Source: Bacteroidota bacterium (GTDB taxonomy: Bacteria; Bacteroidota; Bacteroidia; NS11-12g; UBA9320). Taken from it: a DNA stretch of 64,000 nucleotides. The translations under genes were made by a program, and so were the position numbers. How positions within the stretch are numbered: position 1 is the first letter of the stretch; every line of letters begins with the position of its first letter. Where the stretch lies: contig CANIKO010000007.1 in the NCBI GenBank assembly GCA_947468275.1, forward strand, positions 1-64,000, given 5' to 3'. A model generated the notes under the pieces. The model made no database searches and was not told where the DNA came from. It saw only the letters and a list, made by a program, of their open reading frames with translations. Positions 11,067 through 52,221 of this stretch are shown here, one piece after another.

Positions 11067-11143
11067 CGGGGTGTAGCTCAGCCCGGTAGAGTACACGTCT
11101 GGGGGGCGTGTGGTCGCAAGTTCGAATCTTGTCACCCCGACCA
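11067..11143 (+). tRNA. tRNA-Pro (anticodon GGG)
   Basis: The acceptor stem CGGGGTG pairs with CACCCCG at 11133-11139, followed by discriminator A and an encoded CCA. The D-loop has AGCCCGGTAGA and the T-arm has GTTCGAATC. The anticodon stem CACGT/GCGTG encloses a 7-nt loop, CTGGGGG, with GGG at positions 34-36. The accessory island begins right after this gene, so it is the probable landing site, although no second copy of the tRNA 3' end was found at the far side. Confidence 0.95.
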
Positions 11144-12115: not shown

Positions 12116-12192
12116 TTCAAATTGACATTTTAGTCACAAAATACCTAATGTTTGTATGAGATATAATTCGTTAATATTGAAAATAGCATATT

Positions 12193-12540
12193 ATGACTGA
12201 ATTATCATACCAAAATTGGGCATCTATGACTGATAGAGTCCTGGCAGAACAAATCGGAGCTTTTGTGAAACATCAGCGGCTTGAGCAAAATAAAACGCAG
12301 GACATATTAGCTCATGATGCTGGCATCAGTCGTTCAACCTTAAGTTTACTCGAAAAGGGAGAAACAGTAACTATGGCTACCTTAATACAAGTGCTTAGGA
12401 TATTAGATCAATTACAAGTAATGGACGCTTTTGTTGTACAAAAAAGTATCAGCCCGATTGCTATGGCCAAATTAGAAAGAAACCAACGAAAAAGATCAAG
12501 GAATAAAAAAACAAAAGATACCGGTGATTCTGTGTGGTAG
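12193..12540 (+). CDS. XRE-family helix-turn-helix regulator (HipB-like, orphan)
   Basis: This is a 115-aa DNA-binding protein with a Cro/C1-type helix-turn-helix at about residues 22-75 (QDILAHDAGISRSTLSLLEKG) and a basic Lys/Arg-rich tail. This arrangement, including the SPIAMAKLERNQRKRSR tail, is what one sees in HipB-like regulators that precede a hipA gene. No hipA follows here: the next genes are an AbiEi/AbiEii pair, starting 139 bp downstream from their own promoter. It may be a leftover of a lost hipBA operon or may have been recruited by the neighbouring module. Confidence 0.85.
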   Translation: MTELSYQNWASMTDRVLAEQIGAFVKHQRLEQNKTQDILAHDAGISRSTLSLLEKGETVTMATLIQVLRILDQLQVMDAFVVQKSISPIAMAKLERNQRKRSRNKKTKDTGDSVW

Positions 12541-12626
12541 TATGTAGTGCCAACTTGGTCCCAATGTCTTCTCCTAAAGTTTCAAACAACAAAATGAATA
12601 TGATACCTGGTATGAGTTATAAATTA

Positions 12627-12662
12627 TTGTTTTTCGTCACATATTTACGGTATATTTGTGAC
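12627..12662 (+). promoter_or_regulatory. promoter with overlapping palindromic operator of the AbiE-type operon
   Basis: TTG (12627-12629) and TATATTTG (12651-12658) lie 21 nt apart, matching the Bacteroidota promoter. The -7 element sits inside a near-perfect palindrome, GTCACATATTTAC - G - GTATATTTGTGAC (12636-12662, two mismatched pairs in 13). Known AbiEi antitoxins repress their own operon through inverted repeats at the promoter, so this is the likely operator. Confidence 0.7.
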
Positions 12663-12679
12663 AAGAATTGGCTTATAAA

Positions 12680-13282
12680 ATGACTTATAGCACTGAAATA
12701 CAAATACTTGATAAAATTAAAAAAGCGAGGAGGGGTACGCTATTTTTTACAGATAGTTTTACTGCTAAAGGCAATACCGATGCTGAGCGCAAAGCATTGG
12801 AAAGATTAGTGAAAGCCGGTGAATTAGTAAGGGTTGCCACAGGCATATATGTGCGCCCTGAGAACGACCCTGTAATCGGTTTTGTAACTCCCGGTATTGA
12901 CGCAATTGCCAAAGCCATAGCCAAAAGGGATAAGGCACGAATAGTACCCACAGGTGTTTATGCGCTCAACAGGTTAGGGCTTTCAACACAAGTACCGCTG
13001 AATGTGGTTTACCTTACTGATGGAGCGAAACGAAAAATAAAAATTGGCAAAAGGATAATCACGTTTAAAAATACAACACCAAAAAATGTTGCTGCTATTG
13101 GTGAGATAAGTCGGTTAGTAATACAAGCACTTCGCACTATTGGAAAAGACAAAGCAACACCTGATGAAATTAAAAAAATACAGCAAGTGTTGAAGAAAGA
13201 AAAAAGCACACACCTCCAACACGATATTCGTTTGGCTCCTGTGTGGGTTAGAAAAATTATGCAACCTGTTTTAAAGCCGTAA
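12680..13282 (+). CDS. AbiEi-like antitoxin (DUF6088 family)
   Basis: This is the predicted antitoxin and transcriptional regulator of a type IV toxin-antitoxin pair. The N-terminal winged-helix region contains GTLFFTDSF and ends in a GELVRVATGIYVRP turn typical of AbiEi-like proteins. The C-terminal domain has GVYALNRLGLSTQVP and a strand-rich RKIKIGKRIITFKN segment. The ATG at 12680 is preferred over the in-frame TTG at 12668 because the promoter places the transcript start near 12665. The toxin gene starts 5 bp after the stop. The upstream palindrome is the likely autoregulatory site. Confidence 0.85.
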   Translation: MTYSTEIQILDKIKKARRGTLFFTDSFTAKGNTDAERKALERLVKAGELVRVATGIYVRPENDPVIGFVTPGIDAIAKAIAKRDKARIVPTGVYALNRLGLSTQVPLNVVYLTDGAKRKIKIGKRIITFKNTTPKNVAAIGEISRLVIQALRTIGKDKATPDEIKKIQQVLKKEKSTHLQHDIRLAPVWVRKIMQPVLKP

Positions 13283-13286
13283 TGAA

Positions 13287-14300
13287 ATGAACCCAACAAC
13301 AATAATGGAATGGCTGAAACTTGCCGCCCGTACAAGACAAAATATTTTTAATGAAACAGGTAAGCAAATAGGACTGCCAGATGCAGCCGTTGAAAAAGAT
13401 TGGTGGGTAGTGCGTACACTCGAATTGGTTTTTGAAACATCCATTGCACCACATACTGTTTTCAAAGGCGGCACATCATTAAGTAAAGCATGGAATGTGA
13501 TTGACCGCTTTTCGGAAGACATTGATTTGGCATTGGACAGAAAATTTTTGGGTTTTGAAAAAGAAGATACGGAGATGAATAGTTCGCAAGTATCCAAATT
13601 GCGAAGGCATTCTGTTAAATTTATTTCTGAAAAATATTTTCCGGAACTAACTGATAAATTTATTGAAGTAGGTTTGGATGTAAAAATTCAACTCCGAGAA
13701 ATTAAAACGGATGACCAGGACCCGCTGGTTATTGAAATCCATTACCCATCTGTAACAGAGTATGTAGCTTATGTGCAACCAACAATATTGATTGAAGTAA
13801 GCAGCCGTTCTTTATTGGAACCACATTCTCCAAAAAGTTTTTCCTCTATGGTGGGTGAGCATTTCAAAGGCCGGCCATTTGCCGATACAAATATTACCAT
13901 ACCAACCGTAAATCCTGAGAGAACATTTTTAGAAAAAATATTTCTGTTGCACGAAGCATTTCAGGGATCGTTGGAGAAAACGAAAATTGAACGCAAAAGT
14001 CGGCACCTGTACGATTTGGAAAAGTTGATGGATACTGATTTTGCAAAATCAGCATTAAATGACAGGGTACTTTATCAAACTATCGTTGAACACCGAAGAA
14101 AGCTTAATGCCATTAGAGAAGTGAATTATGATAATCACATACCGGCAAAAATAAACCCCATACCACCTGATGAAATTATCGGAGAATGGGAAAAGGATTA
14201 CTTAGCTATGCAACAAAGTATGTTGTACAATCCATCGCTACCTTTTGATAAACTTATAGAAAGGCTTAAAGAACTAAAGACCAGAATTAATACTCTGTAA
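13287..14300 (+). CDS. AbiEii/AbiGii-family nucleotidyltransferase toxin
   Basis: This is the predicted toxin of the AbiE-type pair: a DNA polymerase beta-fold nucleotidyltransferase. Characterised relatives (AbiEii, MenT) block growth, in MenT by adding nucleotides to tRNA 3' ends. The signature is complete: KGGTSLSKAW with G61-G62-T63-S64, then RFSEDIDLAL with metal ligands Asp78 and Asp80. A C-terminal helical region contains the family's conserved ERTFLEKIFLLHEA. The 337-aa length is normal. The gene is co-transcribed with the antitoxin (5 bp apart). Confidence 0.92.
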   Translation: MNPTTIMEWLKLAARTRQNIFNETGKQIGLPDAAVEKDWWVVRTLELVFETSIAPHTVFKGGTSLSKAWNVIDRFSEDIDLALDRKFLGFEKEDTEMNSSQVSKLRRHSVKFISEKYFPELTDKFIEVGLDVKIQLREIKTDDQDPLVIEIHYPSVTEYVAYVQPTILIEVSSRSLLEPHSPKSFSSMVGEHFKGRPFADTNITIPTVNPERTFLEKIFLLHEAFQGSLEKTKIERKSRHLYDLEKLMDTDFAKSALNDRVLYQTIVEHRRKLNAIREVNYDNHIPAKINPIPPDEIIGEWEKDYLAMQQSMLYNPSLPFDKLIERLKELKTRINTL

Positions 14301-14390
14301 ACTTTTCCCGGTTTTTTCGCTGTCATTCCGGCGGAATGTTTACCACTTAAAAATGATTTTCAAGGTTATCATTTATAATAAAGCAGATTG

Positions 14391-14636
14391 AAAGTCTTCA
14401 ATTTATAAAGAAGCCTTGCCCGAATAAATGTAAACAGACTTATACAGGAATATTCAAAAGCAGGAAAAGTTGAATTTATTGAAGGTGCGACTTTTAAGAC
14501 TATAATACCGCTTGATGCTAATTTTATTGACGGTGTAAATGACGGTGTAAATGACGGTGTAAATGATTTTGTAACCAAAGAAGTTACCGCAAAAAACTTC
14601 AACACAGAATTTGATTTTTTATTTTTGAGATTTTAA
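14391..14636 (+). pseudogene. remnant of an AAA_4/RecG-C-type ATP-binding regulator (C-terminal tail)
   Basis: A frame open up to the TAA at 14634-14636 encodes NRLIQEYSKAGKVEFIEG and TFKTIIPLD, then a DGVN tandem repeat. The pattern is the C-terminal end of the Bacteroidota putative DNA-binding/ATP-binding proteins with AlbA_2 (AAA_4) and HATPase_c_4 domains, which often carry such four-residue repeats. The body of the gene is absent. It shares the leading 14-mer GATTGAAAGTCTTC with the fragment upstream of paralog A. The family assignment is from memory. The rest of 14301-14390 has only a small CATTCCG/CGGAATG hairpin. Confidence 0.5.
14529..14564 (+). repeat. 12-bp tandem repeat, three units
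   Basis: There are three perfect copies of GACGGTGTAAAT, in frame as DGVN in the decayed gene fragment. The unit length equals that of the GGAGATATAGCT duplication at 11377-11400, but the sequence differs. Confidence 0.9.
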
Positions 14637-14651
14637 ACTTCTTAAAGATTT

Positions 14652-15278
14652 ATGAGACGCCAACAAAGAAAACGAATTCCCCATAATGAAACCACCCTTG
14701 GAAAACTAAATTGTCTTTACAATAACCAGGTATGGGTAAAATTACTGCTGGGTAAAGACAAAAAATATGATGAATTTTTAGAAAAAATGTGTCAGAATGA
14801 CTTCTTTAAAAATGAAGAAAGGGTTAGCATTAAGAAAATTTCCACAGATTCGGGTTTTAACTATGAGCATGTAATCAAATGGATTGCCCAAATTTATAAT
14901 GATATTTATGAGCTAAATAGTGAAGAATTCCATTTGTTTAAATCTGCCGGGATAAAGCATAAATGTTATTTTAGATATATTGATAATCACGCATATTTTA
15001 CCGTATGGCTGCCACAAAGCCCAAAAGAGTTTGAAGAGTTTGATTTCCATTTTGTTAGTGCTAAAGTTGGAACACATAGATTTTGGGTGAAGAATATCAC
15101 TCATTATATGGAAAATGGTGAATATAGTGTCCATCTTGAACTAATCGGTGATAATCTAAATAAATATAGAGAACATCTGGTTGATAAAGCACTATTCGAA
15201 AACGTCCTTAATATATTAACTATGTATGGTCAAACTAAAAGGGAAATAGATGAAGTATTAAAGAGACATTATCGCTAA
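14652..15278 (+). CDS. hypothetical protein, 208-aa paralog B
   Basis: This is a close paralog of 11489-12115, with the same length, the same MRRQQRK start, a helix-turn-helix-like segment (VSIKKISTDSGFNYEHVIKW) and an aromatic C-terminal half. Differences are scattered and largely conservative, and no stop or indel interrupts the frame, so both copies look maintained. The conserved upstream leader includes TATTTTTG at 14620-14627. Function unknown. The next 300 bases carry the first 42-bp palindromic site. Confidence 0.75.
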   Translation: MRRQQRKRIPHNETTLGKLNCLYNNQVWVKLLLGKDKKYDEFLEKMCQNDFFKNEERVSIKKISTDSGFNYEHVIKWIAQIYNDIYELNSEEFHLFKSAGIKHKCYFRYIDNHAYFTVWLPQSPKEFEEFDFHFVSAKVGTHRFWVKNITHYMENGEYSVHLELIGDNLNKYREHLVDKALFENVLNILTMYGQTKREIDEVLKRHYR

Positions 15279-15424: not shown

Positions 15425-15466
15425 ATTAATATTCATTAACATGCATGGTTGTTAATGAATATTAAC
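15425..15466. repeat. 42-bp palindromic site 1 (inverted relative to sites 2-4)
   Basis: The left arm ATTAATATTCATTAAC and right arm GTTAATGAATATTAAC (16 bp each) flank a 10-nt spacer, ATGCATGGTT. Each arm is itself a GTTAAT-N4-ATTAAC palindrome. The spacer read on the minus strand (AACCATGCAT) matches the spacers of the other sites better than the plus-strand reading, so this copy appears inverted. It is 119 bp upstream of the HNH gene. The remainder of 15279-15585 is AT-rich with no gene seen. Confidence 0.9.
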
Positions 15467-15585: not shown

Positions 15586-16637
15586 ATGGAATTACCAAAA
15601 ATAAATGGTTTACCGGTAAATAAACTTGCAGCATGCTTTAATAATACATCTGCAACTTATAAGTTTTATTGGTTGCTGGCAATTTTACAATCTGTAGAAT
15701 CAGGAAAAACAAAAATTTTGAAAAGAGACTTGTTTTCCCGGATGATTTCAAATGCTTGGTATACTGTAAATTATTTTCATGTTTCCTTTGGAAAGCAAGA
15801 TAAATTACAAAGAGCCATAGAATTGGTTAAAGTTTTTGAAACCTTAGGAATAGATGATAACCAGAAAAAGTATTTCAAACTTTAACCGAAACAGAAAACC
15901 AAAACTCACTCAGCCAACTTAATTATTTTAATAACCAGGTTCCCCATTGGTTTTTAAGCCCGTGGTTCCCAGGTAATGGCAAAAATGAGATTTATACGAA
16001 GTCGCAAAAATTCACCAATATGAGTTTATATGCCTTGTATGATAACCATATTGAGATAAATCCCAAATGGATAGAATATCTGGAGAATAATACTAAAATG
16101 CTCAAAGATTATTGCCATTGGAACCTCGAAATTTACCTTCAGGCTAAAAATCCCAATGTTCCCGACATCCCGAATAAGATTGTAAAACCTGCCACAAGAA
16201 GCAGTTTAACAAAACAACGTACCTTATTTTGGGATATAGTTGTAAACGAACTAGGATCGGTAGAATGTATTTATACAGGAAAGAAACTTACCATAGGAAA
16301 TTATGCGGTTGAACATTTTATCCCATATAATTTTGTGTCCCATGATTTGATCTGGAATTTGATTCCGGCAGATAAATCCTTCAATAGCTCTAAAAGTGAT
16401 AAACTTCCCCCACTTGATAAATATTATAATCCGTTTTTTACAATGCAGAAAACTGCCATTGAAATTGTAAGGCAAAAAACACCAAAGAATGTCTTCCTAG
16501 AAGATTACCTTACAATTTTTTCTGACCTGGATGAATTAAATACTTTGTCAATAAATTTTACCCGGGAAAAATTTAAAGAAAGGATTCAGCCATTAATCAC
16601 AATTGCCTCCAATAATGGATTTGAGTTTTTAAGATAA
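15586..16637 (+). pseudogene. HNH endonuclease gene broken by a frameshift
   Basis: Two frames together make one protein. Residues 1-99 (15586-15885) have the N-terminal region of Bacteroidota HNH proteins (NNTSATYKFYWLLAIL). The continuation is in another frame, open from about 15876 (QTLTETENQNSLSQL, then VPHWFLSPWFPG) to 16637. The second part holds the HNH core: VECIYTGKKL, VEHFIPYNFVSHD, LIWNLIPADKSFN and SKSDKLP. The junction is in AAGTATTTCAAACTTTAACC (about 15868-15888), where a one-base change restores the frame. It is either a recent inactivating mutation or a sequencing error; no slippery heptamer is evident. A HIT gene follows after 9 bp. A DNase role in defence is inference from context. 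Confidence 0.8.
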
Positions 16638-16646
16638 GTAATAAGA

Positions 16647-17030
16647 ATGGAAATAAAATCCCAATGTCCTTTCTGTAAACTTGATTCCGAACGCGAAATA
16701 GTTCTGGAATCTGAAAATGTTCATGCAATCTTTGATAAATTTCCGGTAAGCAAGGGCCACTCCTTAATTATTCCTAAAAAACATGTTTCAGATTATTTTC
16801 AACTCAACCGTTCGGAACAATCCGAATGCTGGCTAATGGTCAACAACATTAAACAAATATTGGATAATAAATTTAATCCAGATGGTTACAATATTGGTAT
16901 CAATATTATGGAATCTGCCGGTCAGACAGTTCCGCATGTTCATATTCATGTTATACCTCGATACAAAGGTGATGTTAAAGAACCGAGAGGGGGAGTAAGG
17001 GGGGTTATCCCCGCACAGCAGAATTATTAA
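16647..17030 (+). CDS. HIT-family protein
   Basis: This is a small nucleotide-binding hydrolase or transferase of the histidine-triad superfamily, acting on nucleoside phosphoramidates, adenylylated compounds or dinucleotides. The triad HVHIHV has His97, His99 and His101. An N-terminal CPFC and the segment GHSLIIPKKHV are typical of the HIT hydrolase branch. The length (127 aa) is normal. It starts 9 bp after the HNH frame, so the two were probably made together. HIT proteins next to HNH nucleases may process nucleotide signals or adenylylated termini, but the role here is unknown. Confidence 0.93.
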   Translation: MEIKSQCPFCKLDSEREIVLESENVHAIFDKFPVSKGHSLIIPKKHVSDYFQLNRSEQSECWLMVNNIKQILDNKFNPDGYNIGINIMESAGQTVPHVHIHVIPRYKGDVKEPRGGVRGVIPAQQNY

Positions 17031-17175
17031 CTATTTGTATTTTGTACTTTTCAGACCAATTGGCGAATTAAATCAAAACTATTACAATTGGTAATCAATC
17101 AGAGATTAACTCTTGTTACTAACTTTATTTTTCAACATTCAGAATCAAACAAATCATTCCTTATAATTTTACTCC

Positions 17176-18219
17176 ATGAAAGGTGGAGTAATCAAAGGCA
17201 TTGAAAACATCATATCCCATCCCAATATGGATGAGGGGGAGATGGTGTTTCAGATAAAAAATCTGATTTATGAATCGGAAATACATCATGTGAAGCCACA
17301 CGAATCGAGATCTATTTCAGAGCTCATTGGCGAAAATCTGGATCTGATTAAAAATGGGATGACCGATGATAAGGTTTTAAGAACCGGATTTAAGGATTTG
17401 GATAACATTATAGGCGGTTTTTCTTTTGGTGAATTGAATGTAATAGCGGGCAGACCAGGAATGGGTAAAACAGTGCTTTTAGTCAATTTGGTTCTTAAAA
17501 TGTCGGAAACTGTTCCAGTCCTTTATTTTTCATTTGAATTATCTGAATCTCAATTATCAAGCCGTTTCATATCAACCCTGTCAAAAATCCCGGCGAATAA
17601 AATTGCACAGCAAAACCTTACCATGGATGAAATGGAGTTTTTATTTTCTCTTGAAGAAACGATAGCAAACCACCAAATTTTTATAAACGATAGTTGCAGC
17701 AATTCTTTTACTGCCTTCAAAGAAAATTGCCAGAAGCAAATAGAAGAAAACGGGGTAAAAGTTATCATTGTAGATTACATACAATTGATGGGTTCGAGCA
17801 GAAACCGAAACAGTCGGGAATTAGAAATAAGCTACATCAGCCGGGAATTAAAAAATATTGCCAAAAACAACAACGTTTGTATCATTGCTGCAAGCCAGTT
17901 AAGCCGTAATTCTGAGCGAAGGGAAGGAAATAGACCACAGTTGGCCGACCTAAGCGATAGTGCCGCTATTGAACAAAACGCCGACAAGGTTATGATGATT
18001 TACCGCCCTGAATATTATGGACTGGAAGAAGATGAGCAAGGAAACAGCACAAAAAATGTTATGGAATTGCTTATCAGAAAAAACAGAAACGGACCGGTAA
18101 ATGATATAAAGCTTAAAAGGGATTCTGAATTTACAACAATTACTGATTTTGATGAGTATACAACAGGTTTTTCCTTCTCACAAAACCGTTTGGATGAGTT
18201 GGATAGACCACCCTTTTAG
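17176..18219 (+). CDS. DnaB-like RecA-fold ATPase, short form, adjacent to retron
   Basis: This is a replicative-helicase-type ATPase lacking the usual DnaB N-terminal primase-binding domain (347 aa against about 450-500). After about 65 variable residues comes the DnaB_C domain: RTGFKDLDNIIGGFSFGEL, Walker A GRPGMGKT (residues 92-99), Walker B VIIVDYIQLM (around Asp200), the conserved AASQLSR and LADLSDSAAIEQNAD segments, and the C-terminal arginine-finger motif RKNRNGP. It ends 11 bp before the retron RNA and shares strand and module with the reverse transcriptase. It could be a retron effector, a helicase hijacking replication proteins, or a phage-derived DnaB. I do not recall this class as a described retron partner. 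Confidence 0.88.
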   Translation: MKGGVIKGIENIISHPNMDEGEMVFQIKNLIYESEIHHVKPHESRSISELIGENLDLIKNGMTDDKVLRTGFKDLDNIIGGFSFGELNVIAGRPGMGKTVLLVNLVLKMSETVPVLYFSFELSESQLSSRFISTLSKIPANKIAQQNLTMDEMEFLFSLEETIANHQIFINDSCSNSFTAFKENCQKQIEENGVKVIIVDYIQLMGSSRNRNSRELEISYISRELKNIAKNNNVCIIAASQLSRNSERREGNRPQLADLSDSAAIEQNADKVMMIYRPEYYGLEEDEQGNSTKNVMELLIRKNRNGPVNDIKLKRDSEFTTITDFDEYTTGFSFSQNRLDELDRPPF

Positions 18220-18230
18220 TTAAAGATAGT

Positions 18231-18394
18231 GAGCCGTTGCCTTAAAATTATGAGTCAAACAATTAATGACTTGGGGTTGTGTTCCTGCAACCCATGCCGA
18301 AGTGGAAGCATTAGAGTAGCGATCTCAATCCGATGCTCACTGCGTTCCGCCTCGCATTAAGATCGATTTTATCAAAGATAATTGGCAGCGGCTC
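18231..18394 (+). ncRNA. retron msr-msd noncoding RNA
   Basis: The a1/a2 ends pair over 11 bp: GAGCCGTTGCC (18231-18241) with GGCAGCGGCTC (18384-18394), including one G-U. Inside, an msr hairpin GGGTTG-8 nt-CAACCC lies at 18274-18293. A long msd hairpin has arms at 18320-18336 and 18349-18365 (14 of 17 positions complementary) and a 12-nt loop. The RNA ends 18 nt before the ATG of a reverse transcriptase with retron-specific motifs, the canonical arrangement. The branching guanosine is not assigned. This is direct reading of complementarity; no folding program was run. Confidence 0.85.
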
Positions 18395-18412
18395 TTTTTA
18401 AAAAACGAAACA

Positions 18413-19546
18413 ATGGAAGACATAGCAGCATTTGCAAGAAGTGAAAAAAGCAACATTTGGAAATTCCAACATGGGATGTCGCATTTGATTGGAGCCTCAT
18501 TTCAAAACTTCAAAAAACATGAATTTAATGCGCTATTACTTCTTACTCTCGAAAAGCCATCTGAACTCTGTAAGCTATTGCGAACGAATTTTATTGTTTT
18601 AGAAGAAACGATTAATTATCCTATCTATAAACTTTATACCATAGAAAAGAAAAAAGGAGGCACCCGGGAAATATTTGCCCCAGGTAACCGATTAAAACTT
18701 TACCAGAAAACGCTAAACTTTTATTTACAAGCATACTATTTATGGATTAAACCGGAAGAAGTTCATGGCTTTGTGATTAATCCCAACTATTTAGGAACTC
18801 AATGCAATATTGTAGAAAATGCCAAAGTACATATCAATAAGAAGTATGTTTTGAATATCGACCTTAAAGATTTTTTTCCTAATATTAAGGCTTATCGGGT
18901 AAAGGAACTTTTTACCTCGCCATTATTTAAATTTAATGAACCGTTAGCCACAGCCTTAACACTGCTAACCACGTTACAGGGAAAGCTCCCTATTGGGGCA
19001 CCTACATCTCCTGTTATTTCAAATTTTATTTGCCATCAGCTTGATAAGGATTTAAAGGAATTTTGTGTCACTGATAATCTGGCCTATACACGCTATGCCG
19101 ATGATTTAACGTTTTCATCGGATTTAGAAATAACCACCGATACCATTCTAGATATCATAAACCTTATTAATAAAAACGATTTTCAAATTAATGAGAAAAA
19201 ACTACGCCTGAAAACTTCAGGCCGCAGGCAAATAGTTACCGGTCTAACAGTAAATGAAAAAGTAAATGTTGACCGTAAGCTGTTAAAAAAAATAAGGGCC
19301 ATGCTTCATGATTTTATCACCAACGGCCTTCATCATGCAACAAAAAAGCACTTTAAATTAAAAGAAGGATTTAGAATTGAATATCTAACCCGGTTTATGA
19401 ACCGGCTCGAAGGTTATATCAACTTTGTGGGTCAGGTAAGAGGTAAAAATGACGCTTTATATAGAAAATTTAAATCTCAGATTAAACCGAAACCGGAATA
19501 TATAGTTACCTCCACATTAACGGTGAATCGGGATTTTGATGAATAA
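18413..19546 (+). CDS. retron reverse transcriptase
   Basis: It converts part of the adjacent msr-msd RNA into multicopy single-stranded DNA that guards a toxic effector in anti-phage defence. The RT palm motifs are present: LNIDLKDFFPNI (first catalytic Asp), LPIGAPTSPVISN, and YADD at residues 228-231. Both retron-specific signatures are present: NAxxH in region X (Asn136-His140, NAKVH) and VTG in region Y (residues 275-277, VTGLTVN). The C-terminal thumb is basic. The length of 377 aa is slightly long for a stand-alone retron RT, with about 60 extra N-terminal residues. The preceding DnaB-like ATPase and HNH/HIT genes are effector candidates. Confidence 0.95.
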   Translation: MEDIAAFARSEKSNIWKFQHGMSHLIGASFQNFKKHEFNALLLLTLEKPSELCKLLRTNFIVLEETINYPIYKLYTIEKKKGGTREIFAPGNRLKLYQKTLNFYLQAYYLWIKPEEVHGFVINPNYLGTQCNIVENAKVHINKKYVLNIDLKDFFPNIKAYRVKELFTSPLFKFNEPLATALTLLTTLQGKLPIGAPTSPVISNFICHQLDKDLKEFCVTDNLAYTRYADDLTFSSDLEITTDTILDIINLINKNDFQINEKKLRLKTSGRRQIVTGLTVNEKVNVDRKLLKKIRAMLHDFITNGLHHATKKHFKLKEGFRIEYLTRFMNRLEGYINFVGQVRGKNDALYRKFKSQIKPKPEYIVTSTLTVNRDFDE

Positions 19547-19703: not shown

Positions 19704-19745
19704 GTTAATATTCATTAACAACCATGAAGGTTAATGAATATTAAC
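19704..19745. repeat. 42-bp palindromic site 2
   Basis: This is the perfect-consensus copy: GTTAATATTCATTAAC - AACCATGAAG - GTTAATGAATATTAAC. The arms are fully complementary to each other. It lies 157 bp after the retron RT and 107 bp before the exonuclease-RecQ-UvrD gene. No other feature was recognised in 19547-19852. Confidence 0.95.
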
Positions 19746-19852: not shown

Positions 19853-22800
19853 ATGAACCCAATCGTTTTTATTGATACGGAGATTGATCCAAGCAGTAAT
19901 AAGATAAATGACCTGGGGGGCATTAAAGTCAACGGCAATGAATTTCATTCTGGTTCAGTTGTTGATTTTATTTCATTTCTTAAAGGGTCCCAATTTATTT
20001 GTGGACACAATATTATTCGACACGATTATAAGTATATACAAAATGCTATAACTAATTCTGGTATTAATCCTGAGAACATTATTGATACCTTATTTCTCTC
20101 TCCTTTATTGTATCCGGCTAAACCTTATCATGCCTTATTAAAAGATGACAAACTGCAATCTGATGATTTAAATAATCCTTTAAATGACTCTATTAAGGCT
20201 AGAGACTTATTCTATGATGAAGTATCAAAATTCAATCAAACAGAAGAGTCATTAAAGCTAATATTTTATGCTTTATTGAATGAAACCAAGGAATTTAAGG
20301 CTTTCTTTAATTTTTTATCCTATAAGCCGGATTACCCGAATATTGAATCAATTATTTCAGAGAGTTTCCAATCACAAATTTGCGAAAATGCAAATCTTAA
20401 TAAAATAATAGCTGAGAATCCCATTGAATTATCCTATTGCTTAGCATTAATAAATTCTAGCGACCGTTATTCCATCACACCCCGATGGGTTCTTAAAAAC
20501 TTCCCTGATGTCGAGAAAATAATGTTTGCTTTAAGAAGTAAACCCTGTTTATACGGTTGTCAATATTGTACTAATGCATTGGATGTTAAAAAGGGGCTTA
20601 AAAAATATTTTGGCTTTGATTCTTACAGAACCTACGAAGAGAAACCTTTACAGGAACAAGCGGTTAAAGCCGCCGTTGATAACAAATCTATTTTGGCGGT
20701 ATTTCCTACCGGTGGAGGAAAGTCAATAACCTTTCAGGTTCCGGCTTTAATGAGTGGTGAGGCAAGCAAAGGTTTGACAGTTATTATTTCGCCTCTTCAA
20801 TCGTTAATGAAGGACCAGGTTGATAATCTTGAAAAAGTAAATATTACGGATGCTGTAACAATTAATGGTCTTCTTGACCCAATTGAGAGAGCTAAATCAT
20901 TCGAAAGGGTTAATGATGGTTCTGCTTCTATTTTATATATTTCACCGGAATCATTGCGCTCAAAAACGATTGAGCATTTGCTCCTCGGCCGAAATATAGT
21001 TCGGTTTGTTATTGATGAAGCGCATTGCTTTTCCTCATGGGGGCAGGATTTCAGAGTTGATTATTTATATATTGCTGAATTTATAAAGTCGCTTCAAGCT
21101 AAGAAAAATCTTACAGAAAAAATCCCGGTATCCTGTTTCACTGCTACTGCAAAACTTAAAGTTATTGAAGATATTCGGGATTATTTTAAAGATAAACTAT
21201 CTATTGATTTAGAAATTTTCAGTTCAGGTGCATCACGTACAAACCTTGAATACAAAGTATATGAAAAGGAAGATGAGGTAGCAAAGTATAGCGCCGTTAG
21301 AGACCTCTTAGATGAAAAGAAATGTCCAACAATTATTTACGTTTCTAGAACCAAAAAGGCATTTTCGTTGGCCGAAAATTTGACTAAGGATGGTTTCAAT
21401 GCAAAACCCTACCACGGCAAAATGGAATCTAAGGAAAAGTCTGAGAATCAGAATGCTTTTATCTCAGGTGAAGTACAAATTATGGTTGCCACTTCTGCTT
21501 TTGGAATGGGGGTTGACAAAAAGGACGTTGGAATGGTTATCCATTATGAAATATCAGATTCATTAGAGAATTATATACAAGAGGCTGGCAGGGCCGGACG
21601 GGACGAAAGTATGCATGCCGATTGTTTTGTGCTTTTTAATGAAGAAGATTTAGCAAAGCATTTTATACTCCTTAATCAAACCAAAATTTCGATAAAGGAG
21701 ATTCAACAGATTTGGAAGGCCATCAAAGAAATTACGGCGTTCCGTAATAATGTTTCAAATTCAGCTTTGGAAATAGCCAGGAAAGCCGGTTGGGATGATA
21801 GTGTTAAGGAAATTGAAACACGGGTTACCACTGCCATCTCAGCATTAGAGGAGGCCGGGTATTTAAAACGAGGGCAAAATATGCCCAAAATTTTCGCCAA
21901 TAGTATATTATCAAAAACTGCCAATGAAGCCATAAATAAAATAAATAACTCCGAAAGGTTCAATGATCGACAAAAAGTTAGTGGCATTCGGATTATTAAA
22001 AAGCTTTTTTCAAGCAAAAGTAGGGTTCAGGCTAATGATGAAGCGGCGGAATCAAGAATTGATTATATCTCCGATCATTTGGGTATTGTAAAGGAAGAGG
22101 TTATAAATATTGTTAATTTATTAAGGGAAGAAAATATACTCGCTGATGCAAAAGATTTAACAGCATATATAAAAAGAACCGGTGGCAGTAAAGGATCATT
22201 GAAAATTTTGGAAACCTTTGGCCAGATTGAAAATTTTCTACTGCCGGAATTTGAAGAACACGAAAGAACTTTTCATATTAAAGAGCTAAATGAATTGGCT
22301 GAAAGCCAAGGTTACATAGATGTAACACCTAACAAGTTAAAAACCATTATTAATTTTTGGGCGATAAAAAATTGGTTAAAGCGGCATATTGATGAAAATT
22401 CAAAGAATCATATAAATGTTTTATTAATTCAACCGAAAGATTTATTAAAGCAAAAACTTGAAAAAAGGCATGTCTTGTCAAAATTTATCATTGAATTTCT
22501 TCATGATAAAAGCCAGCTAATTAAATCAGAATCTGAAAGCGAAAAAGATGAAGTTTTGGTTGAGTTTTCAGTACTTGAATTAAAAGATGAATTTGAAAAA
22601 AGAGCTCAACTCTTTCGGTTGGATATTACATTAGACGATATTGAAGATACACTCTTCTTCCTTTCAAGAATTGACGCACTAAAAATTGAGGGTGGATTTT
22701 TGGTTGTTTATAACAAACTTACCATTGAAAGTATAGAAAAGGAAAAACCGAAATTCAAAAAGGAAGATTATCAAAAGCTCAATCAATTTTACGAAAACAG

Positions 22801-24652
22801 AGTACAGCAAATTCATATCGTTGGCGAATACGCTAAAAAAATGATTGGTGATTATAAAGGTGCATTGCAATTTGTTGAAGACTATTTTCATTTAAATTAT
22901 ACCTCGTTTCTCAACTTATACTTTCCGGGTAGCCGGCAAAATGAAATAAAACGAAATATTACACCAGCTAAATTCCGTCAATTATTCGGAACCTTATCTG
23001 CAACCCAATTAGAAATAATTAAAGATAACCAAACTAAATATATTGTTGTAGCCGCCGGTCCCGGAAGCGGTAAAACAAGGGTTCTCGTTCATAAACTTGC
23101 CTCACTTTTATTGATGGAGGATGTTAAACATGAGCAACTTTTAATGGTAACATTTTCAAGAGCTGCCGCCACCGAATTTAAAAAGAGATTATTTACACTC
23201 ATTGGAAATGCAGCAGCCTATATTGAAATTAAGACGTTTCATTCCTATTGTTTTGACCTATTAGGAAAGGTAGGAAGTTTAGAAAAATCGGAAGTGATAA
23301 TAAGAAACACCATTGAAAAAATAAAAAATGGGGAGGTTGAAGCCAATCGAATTACGAAAACAGTTTTGGTAATAGACGAGGCTCAAGATATGGATGCCAA
23401 TGAATTTGCCTTAATTAATGCTTTGATAGATTTAAATGATGATATGCGGGTTATTGCCGTTGGTGATGATGACCAAAATATTTTTGAATTTAGAGGGGCT
23501 AGTTCAAAATACTTGGAAGAGTTTATTGTACAAAAAAATGCGACTAAACATGAGTTAATCGAAAATTACCGAAGCAAGCAAAATCTAGTAGAATTCACCA
23601 ATGGGTATGTAAAAAAAATTAACCATAGACTAAAGCAAATACCAATTCATGCCATTCAACCGGATAACGGAACCATTAAATTAGTGCATCATCAAAAGGG
23701 GAACCTCATCACCCCGGTTGTTAATGATGTATTATCATCAAGACTAGCAGGAACAATATGTGTGCTAACTCAGAGAAATGATCAAGCGCTACAAATTACC
23801 GGACTACTTTTGAAAAGCGGAATGCATGCTAAATTGATTCAAACGAACGATGGTTTCAGTTTATACAACTTATTAGAGGTACGGTATTTTTTGCAACGCA
23901 TTCATTTTGAAAATGATGAAATTATTATTGATGATGAAAATTGGAATCGCGCAAAAAATGAATTAAAAGACCACTTTCAGCAGAGTGCAAAATTGGAAAT
24001 TTGTTTAAATCTTTTGAATGATTTCGAAGCCATAAATCCAAAAGCCAAATACAAAACGGACTTGGAAGTTTTTATACGAGAATCTAAGATTGAAGATTTT
24101 TACAATGAAAAAGGTGATATCATATACGTATCCACTATTCATAAAGCCAAGGGTAAAGAGTTTGATAATGTTTTCATTATGCTTGAAGACTTTAACGGCA
24201 GCACGGATGAAAAAAAACGGCTGCTTTATGTGGCTATGACGAGGGCCAAAACCAATTTAACTATTCATACAAATGGAAAATATTTGGATGATTTAACAGC
24301 CGGAAATTTAGAAGTAATAGTAGACGCCGAATCCTACACAGAACCCAATCAACTTGTAATGCACATGTCGCATAATGATGTAAAACTTGGTTACTTTGAA
24401 TTTGTTCAACGCCGACTAAGCGGAATGGTCAGCGGTGATTTGCTAACCAAATCAGGGGAAGGATATGCTAATACAAAGGGAGAATTGGTATTGAAGTTTT
24501 CTAAGAAATTTACTGAAGAAATTATCTTACAAGAAGGAAAAGGTTATATACTCAAAGAAGCAAAGGTTAACTTTATTTTATATTGGAAAAATGAAGAAAC
24601 CTATAAGGAGGTCAAAATAATTTTGCCGGAAGTTTGTTTTGAGAAAAAATAA
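19853..24652 (+). CDS. three-part DNA-processing protein: DEDD-type exonuclease, RecQ helicase, UvrD-type helicase
   Basis: This 1599-aa protein carries three enzyme modules. Residues 1-170 resemble a DEDD 3'-5' exonuclease (VFIDTE, HNIIRHDYKYI, then YHALLKDD and NNPLNDS). Residues about 270-600 are RecQ, with Walker A TGGGKS (from about 287), DEAHCFSSWGQDFR (from 388), SCFTATA, and YIQEAGRAGRDE (to about 583). A winged-helix and linker region follows. Residues about 1050-1500 are a UvrD/Rep-type helicase, with AAGPGSGKT, VIDEAQDMD, GDDDQNIFEFRG, STIHKAKGKEFD and LLYVAMTRAK. The exonuclease-RecQ order resembles the human WRN layout. A four-Cys cluster (CLYGCQYC) lies before the RecQ part. It forms its own module between palindromic sites 2 and 3. 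A role in defence or in processing invading DNA is inferred from the island context. Confidence 0.92.
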   Translation: MNPIVFIDTEIDPSSNKINDLGGIKVNGNEFHSGSVVDFISFLKGSQFICGHNIIRHDYKYIQNAITNSGINPENIIDTLFLSPLLYPAKPYHALLKDDKLQSDDLNNPLNDSIKARDLFYDEVSKFNQTEESLKLIFYALLNETKEFKAFFNFLSYKPDYPNIESIISESFQSQICENANLNKIIAENPIELSYCLALINSSDRYSITPRWVLKNFPDVEKIMFALRSKPCLYGCQYCTNALDVKKGLKKYFGFDSYRTYEEKPLQEQAVKAAVDNKSILAVFPTGGGKSITFQVPALMSGEASKGLTVIISPLQSLMKDQVDNLEKVNITDAVTINGLLDPIERAKSFERVNDGSASILYISPESLRSKTIEHLLLGRNIVRFVIDEAHCFSSWGQDFRVDYLYIAEFIKSLQAKKNLTEKIPVSCFTATAKLKVIEDIRDYFKDKLSIDLEIFSSGASRTNLEYKVYEKEDEVAKYSAVRDLLDEKKCPTIIYVSRTKKAFSLAENLTKDGFNAKPYHGKMESKEKSENQNAFISGEVQIMVATSAFGMGVDKKDVGMVIHYEISDSLENYIQEAGRAGRDESMHADCFVLFNEEDLAKHFILLNQTKISIKEIQQIWKAIKEITAFRNNVSNSALEIARKAGWDDSVKEIETRVTTAISALEEAGYLKRGQNMPKIFANSILSKTANEAINKINNSERFNDRQKVSGIRIIKKLFSSKSRVQANDEAAESRIDYISDHLGIVKEEVINIVNLLREENILADAKDLTAYIKRTGGSKGSLKILETFGQIENFLLPEFEEHERTFHIKELNELAESQGYIDVTPNKLKTIINFWAIKNWLKRHIDENSKNHINVLLIQPKDLLKQKLEKRHVLSKFIIEFLHDKSQLIKSESESEKDEVLVEFSVLELKDEFEKRAQLFRLDITLDDIEDTLFFLSRIDALKIEGGFLVVYNKLTIESIEKEKPKFKKEDYQKLNQFYENRVQQIHIVGEYAKKMIGDYKGALQFVEDYFHLNYTSFLNLYFPGSRQNEIKRNITPAKFRQLFGTLSATQLEIIKDNQTKYIVVAAGPGSGKTRVLVHKLASLLLMEDVKHEQLLMVTFSRAAATEFKKRLFTLIGNAAAYIEIKTFHSYCFDLLGKVGSLEKSEVIIRNTIEKIKNGEVEANRITKTVLVIDEAQDMDANEFALINALIDLNDDMRVIAVGDDDQNIFEFRGASSKYLEEFIVQKNATKHELIENYRSKQNLVEFTNGYVKKINHRLKQIPIHAIQPDNGTIKLVHHQKGNLITPVVNDVLSSRLAGTICVLTQRNDQALQITGLLLKSGMHAKLIQTNDGFSLYNLLEVRYFLQRIHFENDEIIIDDENWNRAKNELKDHFQQSAKLEICLNLLNDFEAINPKAKYKTDLEVFIRESKIEDFYNEKGDIIYVSTIHKAKGKEFDNVFIMLEDFNGSTDEKKRLLYVAMTRAKTNLTIHTNGKYLDDLTAGNLEVIVDAESYTEPNQLVMHMSHNDVKLGYFEFVQRRLSGMVSGDLLTKSGEGYANTKGELVLKFSKKFTEEIILQEGKGYILKEAKVNFILYWKNEETYKEVKIILPEVCFEKK

Positions 24653-24672
24653 TTTAACCTCGATTTTTATCA

Positions 24673-24714
24673 GTTAATATTCATTAACAATCATTAATTT
24701 TAATGAATATTAAC
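24673..24714. repeat. 42-bp palindromic site 3
   Basis: GTTAATATTCATTAAC - AATCATTAAT - TTTAATGAATATTAAC. It has one departure from consensus in the right arm and the same 16-10-16 spacing. It is 20 bp after the helicase gene and 151 bp before the XRE gene of the HipBST module. Confidence 0.93.
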
Positions 24715-24865: not shown

Positions 24866-25075
24866 ATGTTATTTAATTCAATTGGAGAATCTGTAAGAAA
24901 TCGCAGAAAAGGACTGGGAATAACCCAACCCCACTTAGCCGAACTGGCAAAAGTAAGTACAAACACTCTCTACAAACTTGAACGGGGACAAGGCAATCCC
25001 ACTTTAGAGGTTCTTAATAAATTGGCGGAGGTGTTGGGCATGGAACTGAAACTTGAAGTTAAAAAGAACCTTTAA
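24866..25075 (+). CDS. hipB: HipB-like XRE antitoxin/regulator
   Basis: This is a 69-aa DNA-binding protein that is almost entirely a Cro/C1 helix-turn-helix (RRKGLGITQPHLAELAKVS, then TLYKLERGQGNPTLEVLNKL). In HipBST systems the HipB subunit binds the promoter and helps hold the kinase inactive. It is first of three same-strand genes, followed by HipS-like and HipT-like products. The start is fixed by the single ATG after the operator region. Confidence 0.9.
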   Translation: MLFNSIGESVRNRRKGLGITQPHLAELAKVSTNTLYKLERGQGNPTLEVLNKLAEVLGMELKLEVKKNL

Positions 25076-25156
25076 ATAAAAATTGATCTAAATTAATTAT
25101 CAAATCGAAGATTAGAAAATGCCACTAACTAAAAATAGATTTAAAATAATTTTCAA

Positions 25157-25495
25157 ATGAGGGCTGCAGAAATATATAGAGACGGGAGTTTTACCGGAGT
25201 TTTGACCGAACTCAACCACAAGCATTTTGTGTTTAAGTATGATGATAATTATTTTAATGATGCAGGTAAACCTGCCATCAGTTTAACACTTCCGAAAACC
25301 CAAAAGGAATACTCTAGTGAATTTTTATTCCCGTGTTTTTTTAACATGCTTAGCGAAGGTGTTAACAAAAAATTGCAAAGCAAACAATTGCGAATTGATG
25401 AGGAAGACAATTTTGGTTTATTGATGGCAACAGCGCAATTCGATACCATTGGTGCGGTAACTGTAATACCAATAAAAGTGATTAGTGAAGAATGA
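25157..25495 (+). CDS. hipS: HipS-like protein (HipA N-terminal subdomain alone)
   Basis: This 112-aa protein corresponds to the N-terminal subdomain of HipA kinases encoded as a separate gene. Its features are EIYRDGSFTGVLTEL, AISLTLPKTQKEYSSEFLFP, FFNMLSEGVNK and the closing DTIGAVTVIP motif. In the described HipBST module the small HipS protein is the antitoxin that blocks the HipT kinase. Its last codons overlap the hipT start by 4 bp (ATGA), indicating translational coupling. Confidence 0.88.
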   Translation: MRAAEIYRDGSFTGVLTELNHKHFVFKYDDNYFNDAGKPAISLTLPKTQKEYSSEFLFPCFFNMLSEGVNKKLQSKQLRIDEEDNFGLLMATAQFDTIGAVTVIPIKVISEE

Positions 25496-26538
25496 AAAAG
25501 GAAAAACACACACAGTCAGATGCAACTATTGTTAATTTTCCGGTGGCCACTGAAGTTTGTCCCGGAACATTGGCTGAAGGGTTTACCACTTATAGTCCGA
25601 GTTGTTTACGGAATTTGTTTAAAGGCAAAAAGGTAAACCATCTATTGCCCTATGAGCCACCTCAACAAAGCGAAGATGTCGCAGAACAATTTATCGAAAA
25701 CCGCAAACGTATTTCCATATCAGGAGTTCAGGAAAAATTAAGTTTTATACTTGAAAAAAATCAATTGCGGCTTACCAAAGAAGGGGAACTTGGAACATAT
25801 ATTCTAAAACCAATACCACGAGACTTAAAAAAAGTTGACCAAGTACCGGCAAACGAACATCTAACAATGCAAATTGCCCGGCAGGTTTATGGAATAAATA
25901 CAGCCGAAAATGCTATGATTTTTTTTAAGAATGGTTTGCCGGCCTATATAACCAAACGTTTTGATGTAAAGAAAGATTTAGGAAAATTGGGCCTTGAAGA
26001 TTTTGCAACCCTTGCAGGCAAAACCAAGGATAATGCAGGGGCTGATTTTAAATATGAATATAGCTATGAAGAGGTTGGGATGCTGATACAGAAATTTGTC
26101 CCGGCTTGGAGAGTAGAAATAGAGAAATATTTTTCGTTAGTAGTATTCAATTTTCTTTTTTCAAACGGCGATGCACATTTGAAGAATTTTTCATTATTGG
26201 AATCAACCAACGGCGATTATTTGTTGAGCCCTGCTTATGATTTAATAAACACTAAACTGCATGTAGATGATCCAGATTTTGCGCTGAGTAAAGGATTATT
26301 TGCGGACGAGTTTAAAAGTGATAAATTTAAAAATAGCGGTCACCCATCCAAAGCTGATTTTATTGAATTTGCTAGACGTATAGGGGTTTCAGAAAGCAGA
26401 TTTGAAAAACTTTTGGCTCCATTTTTAGAAATACAAAATCAGGTAGATGAATTGACAAGCCGTTCTTTTTTGAGCGAACCAAACAAGAGGGGGTATCTAC
26501 TGATGTATCAAACCAAACGAAATTATTTAACTGCTTAA
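25492..26538 (+). CDS. hipT: HipT-like serine/threonine kinase toxin
   Basis: This is a HipA-superfamily kinase without the N-terminal subdomain (348 aa), as in HipT, whose E. coli member phosphorylates tryptophanyl-tRNA synthetase. The Gly-rich loop reads ISISGVQEKLSF with Ser75 and Ser77, matching the SIS pair that is autophosphorylated in HipT. The catalytic loop SNGDAHLKN has Asp227 and Asn232. The metal-binding Asp is Asp250 in AYDLINT. The N-terminal 60 residues contain a PSCLRNLF segment common to split HipA proteins. The target in this organism cannot be told from sequence. The gene ends 7 bp before palindromic site 4. Confidence 0.92.
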   Translation: MKKEKHTQSDATIVNFPVATEVCPGTLAEGFTTYSPSCLRNLFKGKKVNHLLPYEPPQQSEDVAEQFIENRKRISISGVQEKLSFILEKNQLRLTKEGELGTYILKPIPRDLKKVDQVPANEHLTMQIARQVYGINTAENAMIFFKNGLPAYITKRFDVKKDLGKLGLEDFATLAGKTKDNAGADFKYEYSYEEVGMLIQKFVPAWRVEIEKYFSLVVFNFLFSNGDAHLKNFSLLESTNGDYLLSPAYDLINTKLHVDDPDFALSKGLFADEFKSDKFKNSGHPSKADFIEFARRIGVSESRFEKLLAPFLEIQNQVDELTSRSFLSEPNKRGYLLMYQTKRNYLTA

Positions 26539-26545
26539 ACTATGT

Positions 26546-26587
26546 GTTAATATACATTAACAAGAATGTATGTTAATGAATATTAAT
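26546..26587. repeat. 42-bp palindromic site 4
   Basis: GTTAATATACATTAAC - AAGAATGTAT - GTTAATGAATATTAAT. It shows two departures from the site 2 consensus, with arms and spacer of the same lengths. It closes the last defence module; the next gene (26650-27294, minus strand) looks chromosomal. Confidence 0.9.
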
Positions 26588-26649: not shown

Positions 26650-27294
26650 TCACTTTAAAAATTCTAAAATATTTTGTCCTGTCATTGAAGAGTCTCCATT
26701 TTTTAAAACTTTTACAGATTTCAGCATCGCTCCTGCTAATAGTTTTGTAGAAATTGGTTTTTGGGAACGAAAAATTCCCAGACTATTTAAGAAAAGAATC
26801 ATTTTAGCTCCTAAAACTTCCATTTTTCGGTCGGTATTTTCCCTTAGTAATAAAGGAGGATTTAAAATAATTGTTTTTAAAAACTGAAGGGCTTTCACAT
26901 CATCCTCTAATTTCCCTTTCATTTTTGAATAAAATATCAGCGATTTACTTGAAGCGTTTGCAGCCGACACCAAAACATAACTATTCACGTTGCTTTCTCT
27001 AGCAATTTTTGCAAACTGATATTGATATTCATAATCAATTTTCCATTGAGCTTCCTTGCTTCCTGCTAGTTTAAGCGTAGTTCCTAAACAGGAAAATAAT
27101 ATATCCCCTTTTACCAAATATTTCCATTCTTCGGGCTTATCAAAGTCAATAATGTGACTGTTTAATTTTTCATGCTTAACATTCAACTCACGCCTTACAA
27201 AAACATCTACTTGGTTAATTTCTTCATCTTTCAGAAGCAATTCCAATAAATCCTTTCCGGTAGCTCCGGTTGCTCCAATTAATAATGCTTTCAT
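26650..27294 (-). CDS. NAD(P)-binding Rossmann oxidoreductase (NmrA/HTATIP2-like)
   Basis: This is a short atypical SDR protein of 214 aa. The dinucleotide-binding motif GATGATG is at residues 7-13 within MKALLIGATGATGKDLLELL. A later LVSAANASSKSLIFYSKMKG segment contains the Ser and YxxxK pattern of the superfamily. It is often annotated as an oxidoreductase or nucleoside-diphosphate-sugar epimerase-like protein; the substrate is unknown. It is divergent from the defence island and is probably the first backbone gene after it. Confidence 0.85.
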   Translation of the reverse strand: MKALLIGATGATGKDLLELLLKDEEINQVDVFVRRELNVKHEKLNSHIIDFDKPEEWKYLVKGDILFSCLGTTLKLAGSKEAQWKIDYEYQYQFAKIARESNVNSYVLVSAANASSKSLIFYSKMKGKLEDDVKALQFLKTIILNPPLLLRENTDRKMEVLGAKMILFLNSLGIFRSQKPISTKLLAGAMLKSVKVLKNGDSSMTGQNILEFLK

Positions 27295-28044: not shown

Positions 28045-29100
28045 ATGAAAAAGATAGTAAGTTTTTGTTTTATAGTGTTTGCGCTTTTAATACAAATTAA
28101 GGCACAACCCCCTTCAGACTATTATTCAAGTTTGGAAGGTAAATACACCGAAGAATTAAAAACTGCAACCCACCTTGCTATTAAAGTGCATTTAAGACTT
28201 AGTTATACTGCCCTTTGGAAATACTTTCAACAAACCGATTGTATGCCAGATGATACCTCAAGAATTTGTGATATGTATTCAAGTAATATTACATATTTCA
28301 GCGATTATAGTACACTAAACAAAGAACATTGTGTTCCTAATTCATGGTGGGGCGGACCCACGGCAGATAATGAGTATGCTTATAGGGATTTAAATAATTT
28401 ATACCCAGCCAACGAAACAGTAAATATGTCAAAAAGCAATAATCCGCTCAGTGAAGTTGGAGCTACAACATTAAATAACGGAGTCAGTAAATCAGGCACA
28501 TCTATTTTTAAAGGATTTTCAGGAAAGGCATTTGAACCAGCGGATGAATATAAAGGTGACTTTGCAAGAACTTATTTATATATGGCAACCTGCTACCAAG
28601 ATTATACCACTTGGATGAAAGATACAACAGGACAATATCAGATTATTATTGGCGCATATCCTTCAATACAACCATGGGCCATCAATTTACTATTAAAATG
28701 GCACAGACAAGACCCTTTAAGCTTAAAAGAAACAACCCGAAATAATATAGTATTTGTACTTCAAGAAAATAGAAATCCATTTATTGACTATCCGCAATTG
28801 GCTGAATACATTTGGGGAAATATGAAAGATAGTATTTGGCATGCAGCCACCATTAATATAAAAGATAATACTATTACACAACCCACTATATACCCTAATC
28901 CATCGAAAGATCAAATTCATATAAACATTGAAAATTCATCCTCCTCGGATTTCCAATATGATATTTACACCATCACTGGAATTATGAAACTATCAGGCCA
29001 TTCCAGTATTATTGATATTTCACAGCTGCCAACAGGTGTTTATTCTTGTAAGATTACTAACCAATCAAAAGTATATATCAATAAGCTAATTATACGCTAG
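28045..29100 (+). CDS. endonuclease I family nuclease, T9SS-exported
   Basis: This is a secreted nonspecific nuclease of the endonuclease I (EndA) family. A signal peptide covers residues 1-20 (cleavage after IKAQ). The catalytic region has NKEHCVPNSWWGG, with the metal-site His, and DLNNLYPANETVN, both hallmarks of the family. The final 75 residues form a type A T9SS sorting domain beginning TIYPNPSKDQIHI and ending in a basic IINKLIIR-like segment (INKLIIR), so the enzyme should be exported across the outer membrane. It may supply nucleotides or degrade extracellular DNA. Confidence 0.93.
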   Translation: MKKIVSFCFIVFALLIQIKAQPPSDYYSSLEGKYTEELKTATHLAIKVHLRLSYTALWKYFQQTDCMPDDTSRICDMYSSNITYFSDYSTLNKEHCVPNSWWGGPTADNEYAYRDLNNLYPANETVNMSKSNNPLSEVGATTLNNGVSKSGTSIFKGFSGKAFEPADEYKGDFARTYLYMATCYQDYTTWMKDTTGQYQIIIGAYPSIQPWAINLLLKWHRQDPLSLKETTRNNIVFVLQENRNPFIDYPQLAEYIWGNMKDSIWHAATINIKDNTITQPTIYPNPSKDQIHINIENSSSSDFQYDIYTITGIMKLSGHSSIIDISQLPTGVYSCKITNQSKVYINKLIIR

Positions 29101-52210: not shown

Positions 52211-52221
52211 CATCATCTTTT

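Follow-up and report, generated by a model that had tools for sequence, protein, structure and literature searches.

Within the window, by which we mean the whole 64,000-nucleotide stretch analysed here, a single open reading frame encodes a 1599-residue protein that joins a predicted DnaQ-fold, DEDD exonuclease-like domain to a RecQ-type and a UvrD/PcrA-type helicase core (Table 1). The frame starts with ATG and has no internal stop in the ORF list of the window. It lies in a 31-kb accessory region (11144-42138) that reaches from a tRNA-Pro gene to a gene resembling, by eye, a thymidylate kinase, and near-identical 42-bp palindromes, four in all, split this tRNA-Pro island into a retron block, the fusion helicase and a HipBA module.

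Table 1. Position of the fusion gene, its domains and the neighbouring island features in the window
Feature	Position	Strand	Context or basis
tRNA-Pro (ggg)	11067..11143	+	Left edge of accessory region
Palindrome copy 1	15425..15466		Left of HNH/HIT/DnaB-like/retron block
Retron-block module, total	15586..19546	+	
HNH_4 gene, frame-broken	15586-15885 / 16020-16637	+	Retron-block module
HIT protein	16647-17030	+	Retron-block module
DnaB-C-like ATPase	17176-18219	+	Retron-block module
Retron-like RNA	about 18231-18392	+	Retron-block module
Retron-like RT	18413-19546	+	Retron-block module
Palindrome copy 2	19704..19745		Left edge of fusion-gene module, 107 bp before ATG
Exonuclease-RecQ-UvrD fusion protein, 1599 aa	19853..24652	+	ORF, Pfam, homologs, structure
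DnaQ-fold DEDD exonuclease-like domain (predicted), residues 1-240	19853..20572	+	AF2, Foldseek/VIA, conservation
RecQ-type SF2 helicase core, ~residues 244-616	20582..21700	+	TIGR00614, Pfam, motifs
UvrD/PcrA-type SF1 helicase core, ~residues 1047-1476	22991..24280	+	PF00580, PF13361, Foldseek (low-confidence model), motifs
Palindrome copy 3	24673..24714		20 bp after fusion-gene stop
HipBA module, total	24866..26538	+	
HipB-like HTH	24866-25075	+	Named from sequence
HipA-N	25157-25495	+	HipBA module
HipA-C	25492-26538	+	HipBA module
Palindrome copy 4	26546..26587		Right edge of HipBA module, 7 bp after HipA-C stop

Several other features of the window were seen along the way. The RNA upstream of the retron-like RT is strongly folded (z -4.9) and is closed by complementary GAGCCGUUGCC/GGCAGCGGCUC ends; the DnaB-C-like ATPase stands ahead of this retron (17176-19546), a pairing that may merit attention. 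An AbiEi/AbiEii-type pair (12668-14300) with an HTH-like ORF occupies 11489-15278, bracketed by paralogous ORFs (11489-12115 and 14652-15278) that are 76% identical and have no Pfam match, and its AbiEii shares 51% identity with the AbiEii immediately ahead of a fusion homolog elsewhere (L113). An Endonuclease I with a type IX secretion tail is found at 28045-29100, and a TPP riboswitch (52214-52314) at the mechanically assigned start of an 862-aa ORF (52228-54816).

Domains of the Fusion Protein

Residues 1-240 match nothing in Pfam and, by sequence, nothing in the PDB. Structure prediction, which the sequence-only reading had proposed as a check of DEDD geometry, was run with AlphaFold2 on residues 1-245; the model (pLDDT 86, pTM 0.85, with a weak stretch at 99-105) has a DnaQ fold carrying D8, E10, D58 and D112. 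Staphylococcus aureus DinG is its top match in VIA-align (Z 14.2, 225 aligned residues, rmsd 3.9) and the first in Foldseek (E 2.9e-4), with DnaQ, ExoX, Orn, RNase T and Pol III epsilon among those that follow. The four acidic residues are present in all 81 aligned fusion sequences; a deeper alignment of 104 rows, in which two loci are entered twice, shows them in 103, the remaining row having a gap there. This deeper alignment takes in plasmid homologs of Bacteroidota, Campylobacterota, Pseudomonadota and Cyanobacteriota, and the active-site residues are fixed across these several phyla. By fold and acidic residues, the N-terminal part is predicted to be a DEDD exonuclease.

DEDDh enzymes carry a histidine five residues before the last aspartate, and DEDDy enzymes, such as the WRN exonuclease and RNase D, a tyrosine four residues before it. 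By this spacing, the general-base position of the fusion protein is Asn107, in the weakly modelled stretch, and no row of the 104 has the DEDDh histidine there (Asn in 99, Ser in four, a gap in one); nor does any have the DEDDy tyrosine at position 108 (Asn in 97, Asp in five, Ser in one, a gap in one). Asparagine at the His/Tyr place argues for a DnaQ-like nuclease with an unusual catalytic corner that is not demonstrably WRN-like, and, judged from the residues, the replacement might weaken the nuclease. The domain had been read as a WRN-like exonuclease: the DEDD exonuclease fold stands, whereas its closest structural matches are DinG and DnaQ and the usual His or Tyr is absent. A WRN-type assignment finds no support among the 50 structural matches listed, which hold no WRN exonuclease, a result that does not amount to an exclusion. 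Ahead of the helicase core, a C-x3-C-x2-C cluster (Cys 232, 236 and 239) is kept by most distant homologs in the 104-row alignment and lost by some.

The two motors are recognised directly by Pfam (DEAD at 265-440, Helicase_C at 478-583, UvrD-helicase from 1050 and UvrD_C to 1473), so that, with the fold match of the AlphaFold2 model for the exonuclease, the three domains proposed for this one 1599-residue protein are all accounted for. The RecQ core scores 281.9 bits with TIGR00614, against an NCBIfam cut-off of 219.8, which places it in the RecQ family. Its motifs PTGGGKS (285), DEAHC (388) and QEAGRAGRD (576) are present, and motifs I, II and VI are conserved in the 104-row alignment. Pfam reports no RecQ zinc, RQC or HRDC domain at E <= 0.01, in a protein whose C-terminal model is of low confidence (pLDDT 61). 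The second core, with AGPGSGKT (1068), IDEAQD (1174), VGDDDQN (1203), STIHKAKG (1427) and YVAMTRA (1459), has motifs I, II, III, V and VI of the UvrD/PcrA SF1A helicases and matches PF00580 and PF13361 above cut-off; the motif table thus agrees with the earlier view that both motors are intact. Foldseek on the C-terminal part returns UvrD, PcrA and Rep, then RecB and the Gabija protein GajB, from a low-confidence model (residues 604-1599, pLDDT 61, pTM 0.42) in which the region between the motors and the C-terminus are therefore left uninterpreted.

RecQ and UvrD/PcrA helicases belong to different superfamilies and are both 3'-5' translocases. The description of the motors as an opposite-family pair is therefore right as to superfamily and wrong if extended to polarity, and since the polarity is shared, they do not form an opposed pair of the RecBCD kind.

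Palindromes as Module Boundaries

Copies 2 and 3 of the palindrome flank the fusion gene as a single-gene module, much as the sequence-only reading had it. A search with a 16-mer at up to 2 mismatches finds eight arm matches (four hairpins), with 0.23 expected. The genome has five occurrences of the 13-base palindrome arm and, when 3 mismatches are allowed, four of the whole pattern, all of them within the island. In a sister species (G005), two palindromes bracket HipB/HipA alone at the same recR/tRNA-Pro place; homology between it and the window starts at 24665, eight bases before copy 3, with 93-94% identity across the HipBA block. Taken together with the split of the island, this start of homology indicates that module boundaries coincide with palindromes. 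A search of seven genomes of the genus for the gene on the right flank (26650-27294) gave the host's own copy only at E <= 1e-20, although DNA homology shows the end of this gene at the start of the sister contig. Three further genomes (G004, G006 and G007) join the tRNA-Pro side to the 42.1-kb side with 16, ~500 and ~100 bp between, respectively, and so lack the accessory region; this comparison leaves out G002 and G003, whose contigs end near the tRNA.

Among 183 loci the palindrome pattern occurs in 12, all pieces of the host genome or of the sister species; it is found in one of 395 phylum genomes, namely the host, and in two of 38 genomes of the family (up to 3 mismatches). It was not found in the viral contig and phage collections, and the plasmid records gave a weak partial match only (E 0.07, two Vibrio records). 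None of the homolog loci L038-L117, 80 in number, carries the exact pattern. Hairpins do occur there, but those listed as lying up to 600 bp from a homolog are not this palindrome, and the ones that recur have different sequences, present in 2-3 copies and often of terminator type. We considered the palindromes as part of the helicase system and rejected this on their absence from the 80 loci, together with the different hairpins there. They bound swappable modules of the island and are not part of the mechanism of the fusion gene.

Integron attC sites have the core RYYYAAC...GTTRRRY and a linked integron integrase. Compared by eye with this core pattern, the palindromes do not fit; no integrase or recombinase was found among the island ORFs scanned, and the six Phage_integrase matches in the genome all lie outside the island. 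No compensatory stem changes were noticed in six palindrome copies, a tiny sample, and hence there is no sign of an RNA role.

Distribution and Phylogeny of the Family

A scan of the collection found 501 encoded relatives of the fusion protein. The best 80 of these (81 sequences with the window) are 66-74% identical to it in their best segment and span nearly the whole query, with the exception of L108, which is cut by its contig end. Isolates with a homolog include Flavobacterium denitrificans (L100) and Roseivirga spongicola (L107). The N-terminal domain is encoded in 15 of 395 phylum genomes and 12 of 171 genera, the host included, each time within an open frame of 1601-1731 aa (15/15), and within the host's own family the full-length fusion is found in two of 38 genomes. 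This is a conserved single-gene family.

The tree of the fusion protein mixes bacterial orders. On a FastTree phylogeny of the 81 sequences the order labels need 30 changes, compared with a minimum of 10 and a mean of 40.1 after shuffling, and none of 200 shuffles came as low as 30; the extra changes are in themselves no proof of transfer. The orders are nonetheless more clustered than by chance, and 13 Flavobacteriales rows form one clade, both of which point to partly vertical inheritance. It would seem that the gene moves between lineages. Two Brocadia records form one clade and have a downstream neighbour in common (81% identical); a few of the homologs outside the Bacteroidota are from metagenome-assembled genomes and may be contamination.

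Homologs are also carried by plasmids. Coverage of the query reaches 80% or more in five of the 488 matching plasmid records; these five come from Bacteroidota, Campylobacterota, Pseudomonadota and Cyanobacteriota. The plasmid homologs are listed at NCBI as "RecQ family ATP-dependent DNA helicase" of ~1600-1750 aa and align over up to 100% of the query; two lie near par/rep genes, and others near type I RM or Cas6/WYL genes. HipA-type genes were seen within 8 kb of the Aliarcobacter and Rhizobium plasmid homologs (L177 and L182), and a DnaB-like gene also accompanies the former. Six peptide patterns found no relative in the viral contigs, and no phage record covers 80% of the query; the 20 phage records listed of 104 match the RecQ region only.

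Neighbourhoods of Homologs

No family of neighbouring genes spans more than six of the 81 loci, so housekeeping synteny is absent. A conserved core gene in a syntenic housekeeping position, the observation named beforehand as speaking against a defence role, is not what was found; the gene is sporadic and without fixed synteny. The gene upstream is on the same strand in 44 of 76 loci (window included), and in 16 of the 75 homolog loci having an upstream gene it is on the same strand and within 120 bp. Eleven of these 16 genes are of defence type: five of an HNH_2 nuclease family (L039, L044, L071, L088 and L107), two McrC (L053 and L099), two methyltransferase-HIT genes with an HNH_4-family gene ahead (L064 and L097) and two AbiEii (L069 and L113). 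Seven of the 11 were confirmed singly with Pfam; the remaining four (L044, L071, L099 and L113) were assigned from BLAST matches to proteins of these kinds, least securely in the case of L071 (31% over 146 residues), and only four neighbours reach HNH_2 at 1e-5. Of the rest, L073, L082, L112 and L114 show no defence-type link by eye, and L101 has a weak PLD match only.

PADLOC models of 49 families match at 123 immediate neighbours, as against 17 at 123 (of 178) distant genes. At E <= 1e-41 about 9-14 of the 123 immediate and two of the 123 distant proteins match (one-sided Fisher 0.03-0.0016), counts that were estimated from family tables and, on the immediate side, from the best 25 of the 49 families. 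The enrichment of defence genes around homologs is moderate. The neighbourhood check that had been suggested thus came out mixed: close upstream genes and the PADLOC excess speak for a link to defence, but at most loci the fusion gene is solitary, by housekeeping-type genes and without a close defence-type gene.

Possible Functions

The reading we favour, at slightly less than an even chance, is that the fusion protein is a mobile stand-alone nuclease-helicase that protects the cell from incoming or parasitic replicating DNA. The sporadic spread, the mixed tree and the defence-type genes close upstream would fit an accessory role against mobile DNA, as would the exchangeable island here, the plasmids elsewhere and the minority linkage to restriction-type nucleases, McrC, methyltransferase-HIT and AbiE. 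Such a protein might load at a single-stranded 3' end, whether free or flapped, at a fork, or at a branched replication or recombination intermediate; one or both of the RecQ and UvrD motors would open the duplex, and the exonuclease would trim the 3' end in the manner of DinG, so that primers and ends needed by phage or plasmid replication are lost. Where a linked nuclease gene is present, it may make the entry cut.

An accessory enzyme of DNA repair or replication stress, clearing R-loops, flaps and stalled forks in the manner of DinG or WRN and patchy simply as an optional gene, is possible, though on the unlikely side. The nuclease part has its closest fold in S. aureus DinG, and Bacillus subtilis DinG degrades R-loops and, in vitro, 3' ends, and acts in replication stress (PMC12525004); many homologs adjoin housekeeping-type genes and inheritance is partly vertical. 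Weighing against a repair role are the sporadic spread with its order-mixing tree, the lack of housekeeping synteny, the recurrent tight linkage to restriction and toxin-antitoxin-type genes, and the presence in the host genome of two further RecQ-like frames (738 and 640 aa). The homologs near par/rep genes would suit plasmid maintenance as well, and the protein could serve a mobile element's own replication or resolution, or the exclusion of competing plasmids. The five plasmid homologs covering at least 80% of the query, from four phyla, are consistent with this, as is the pACIB copy, which adjoins ParA/ParB near replication initiation. We regard it as rather improbable, however, since so few of the matching plasmid records reach that coverage and since chromosomal-type genes adjoin the copy in the window and many of the others, albeit on contigs untyped as chromosome or plasmid.

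A component of a multi-gene restriction-like system, in which HNH, or HNH_4 plus methyltransferase-HIT, acts with the helicase and which has decayed in the window, is just as improbable. L064 (8108-9995) and L097 (8113-10001) have an intact HNH_4-family gene, assigned in L064 by cluster and by eye, and a methyltransferase-HIT gene directly upstream of the fusion helicase; the window holds relatives of HNH_4, frame-broken, and of the HIT part at 15586-17030; and HNH_2-type genes run into the fusion-gene start in L044, L088 and L107. These are a minority, however, with the HNH_4 family in three of 81 loci, window included, and the HNH_2 cluster in six of 81, of which the L097 member lies downstream, and in the window the retron genes and a palindrome separate HNH_4/HIT from the fusion gene. 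As the multi-gene reading overlaps the stand-alone defence reading, the likelihoods given here add up to more than one.

A joint proposal, namely a widespread single-gene immunity family with an Asn-type DEDD-N nuclease and two motors of the same polarity, together with 42-bp, four-half-site palindromes by tRNA-Pro where defence modules (retron block, fusion helicase, HipBA) enter or are exchanged singly in the genus, is unlikely to hold as a whole. An enzyme uniting a nuclease and two motors would be able to clear DNA as one compact machine, and the family, which extends over several phyla and for which we found no published function, lends itself readily to testing. Modules set off by palindromes beside a tRNA hotspot likewise offer a testable case of defence genes exchanged as units in Bacteroidota.

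Comparison with Known Systems

Each part of the fusion is familiar, and at NCBI the protein is named for its RecQ part alone; the plasmid RecQ records noted above belong to the same family. Our literature search, which left many subscription papers uncovered and is weak evidence of absence, found no characterised member of the family and no description of the three-part fusion, the Asn signature or palindrome-bounded modules; the relevant passages of PMC5512222 concern other proteins. Each of the 25 PADLOC models listed of 63 matches within one motor (residues 241-647 or SF1 parts), and none of these 25 is a full-length defence match.

Gram-positive DinG (S. aureus, 9ii8/8zef) resembles the fusion in having an N-terminal DnaQ-fold DEDD exonuclease followed by a helicase, but has a single XPD-like SF2 helicase where the fusion has RecQ and UvrD cores and an asparagine at the His/Tyr position. 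WRN likewise has an exonuclease and then RecQ, and the RecQ part of the fusion matches WRN and other RecQ chains; unlike WRN, the fusion has an extra UvrD motor, a nuclease fold closest to DinG and DnaQ, no DEDDy tyrosine, and no Pfam match to the RecQ accessory domains. GajB of Gabija and UvrD/PcrA match the SF1 core by model or structure. In Gabija the partner is GajA, whereas here the motor is fused to an exonuclease and RecQ; PADLOC reports neither a GajA nor a Dpd partner among the seven neighbours scanned. The PADLOC models for DpdF (317 bits) and PsyrT (271 bits) match the RecQ core; no paired antitoxin or dpd locus was recognised in the island, and the fusion differs from DpdF and from the PsyrT/RqlH-type RecQ proteins of defence and toxin-antitoxin loci by its added exonuclease and UvrD parts.
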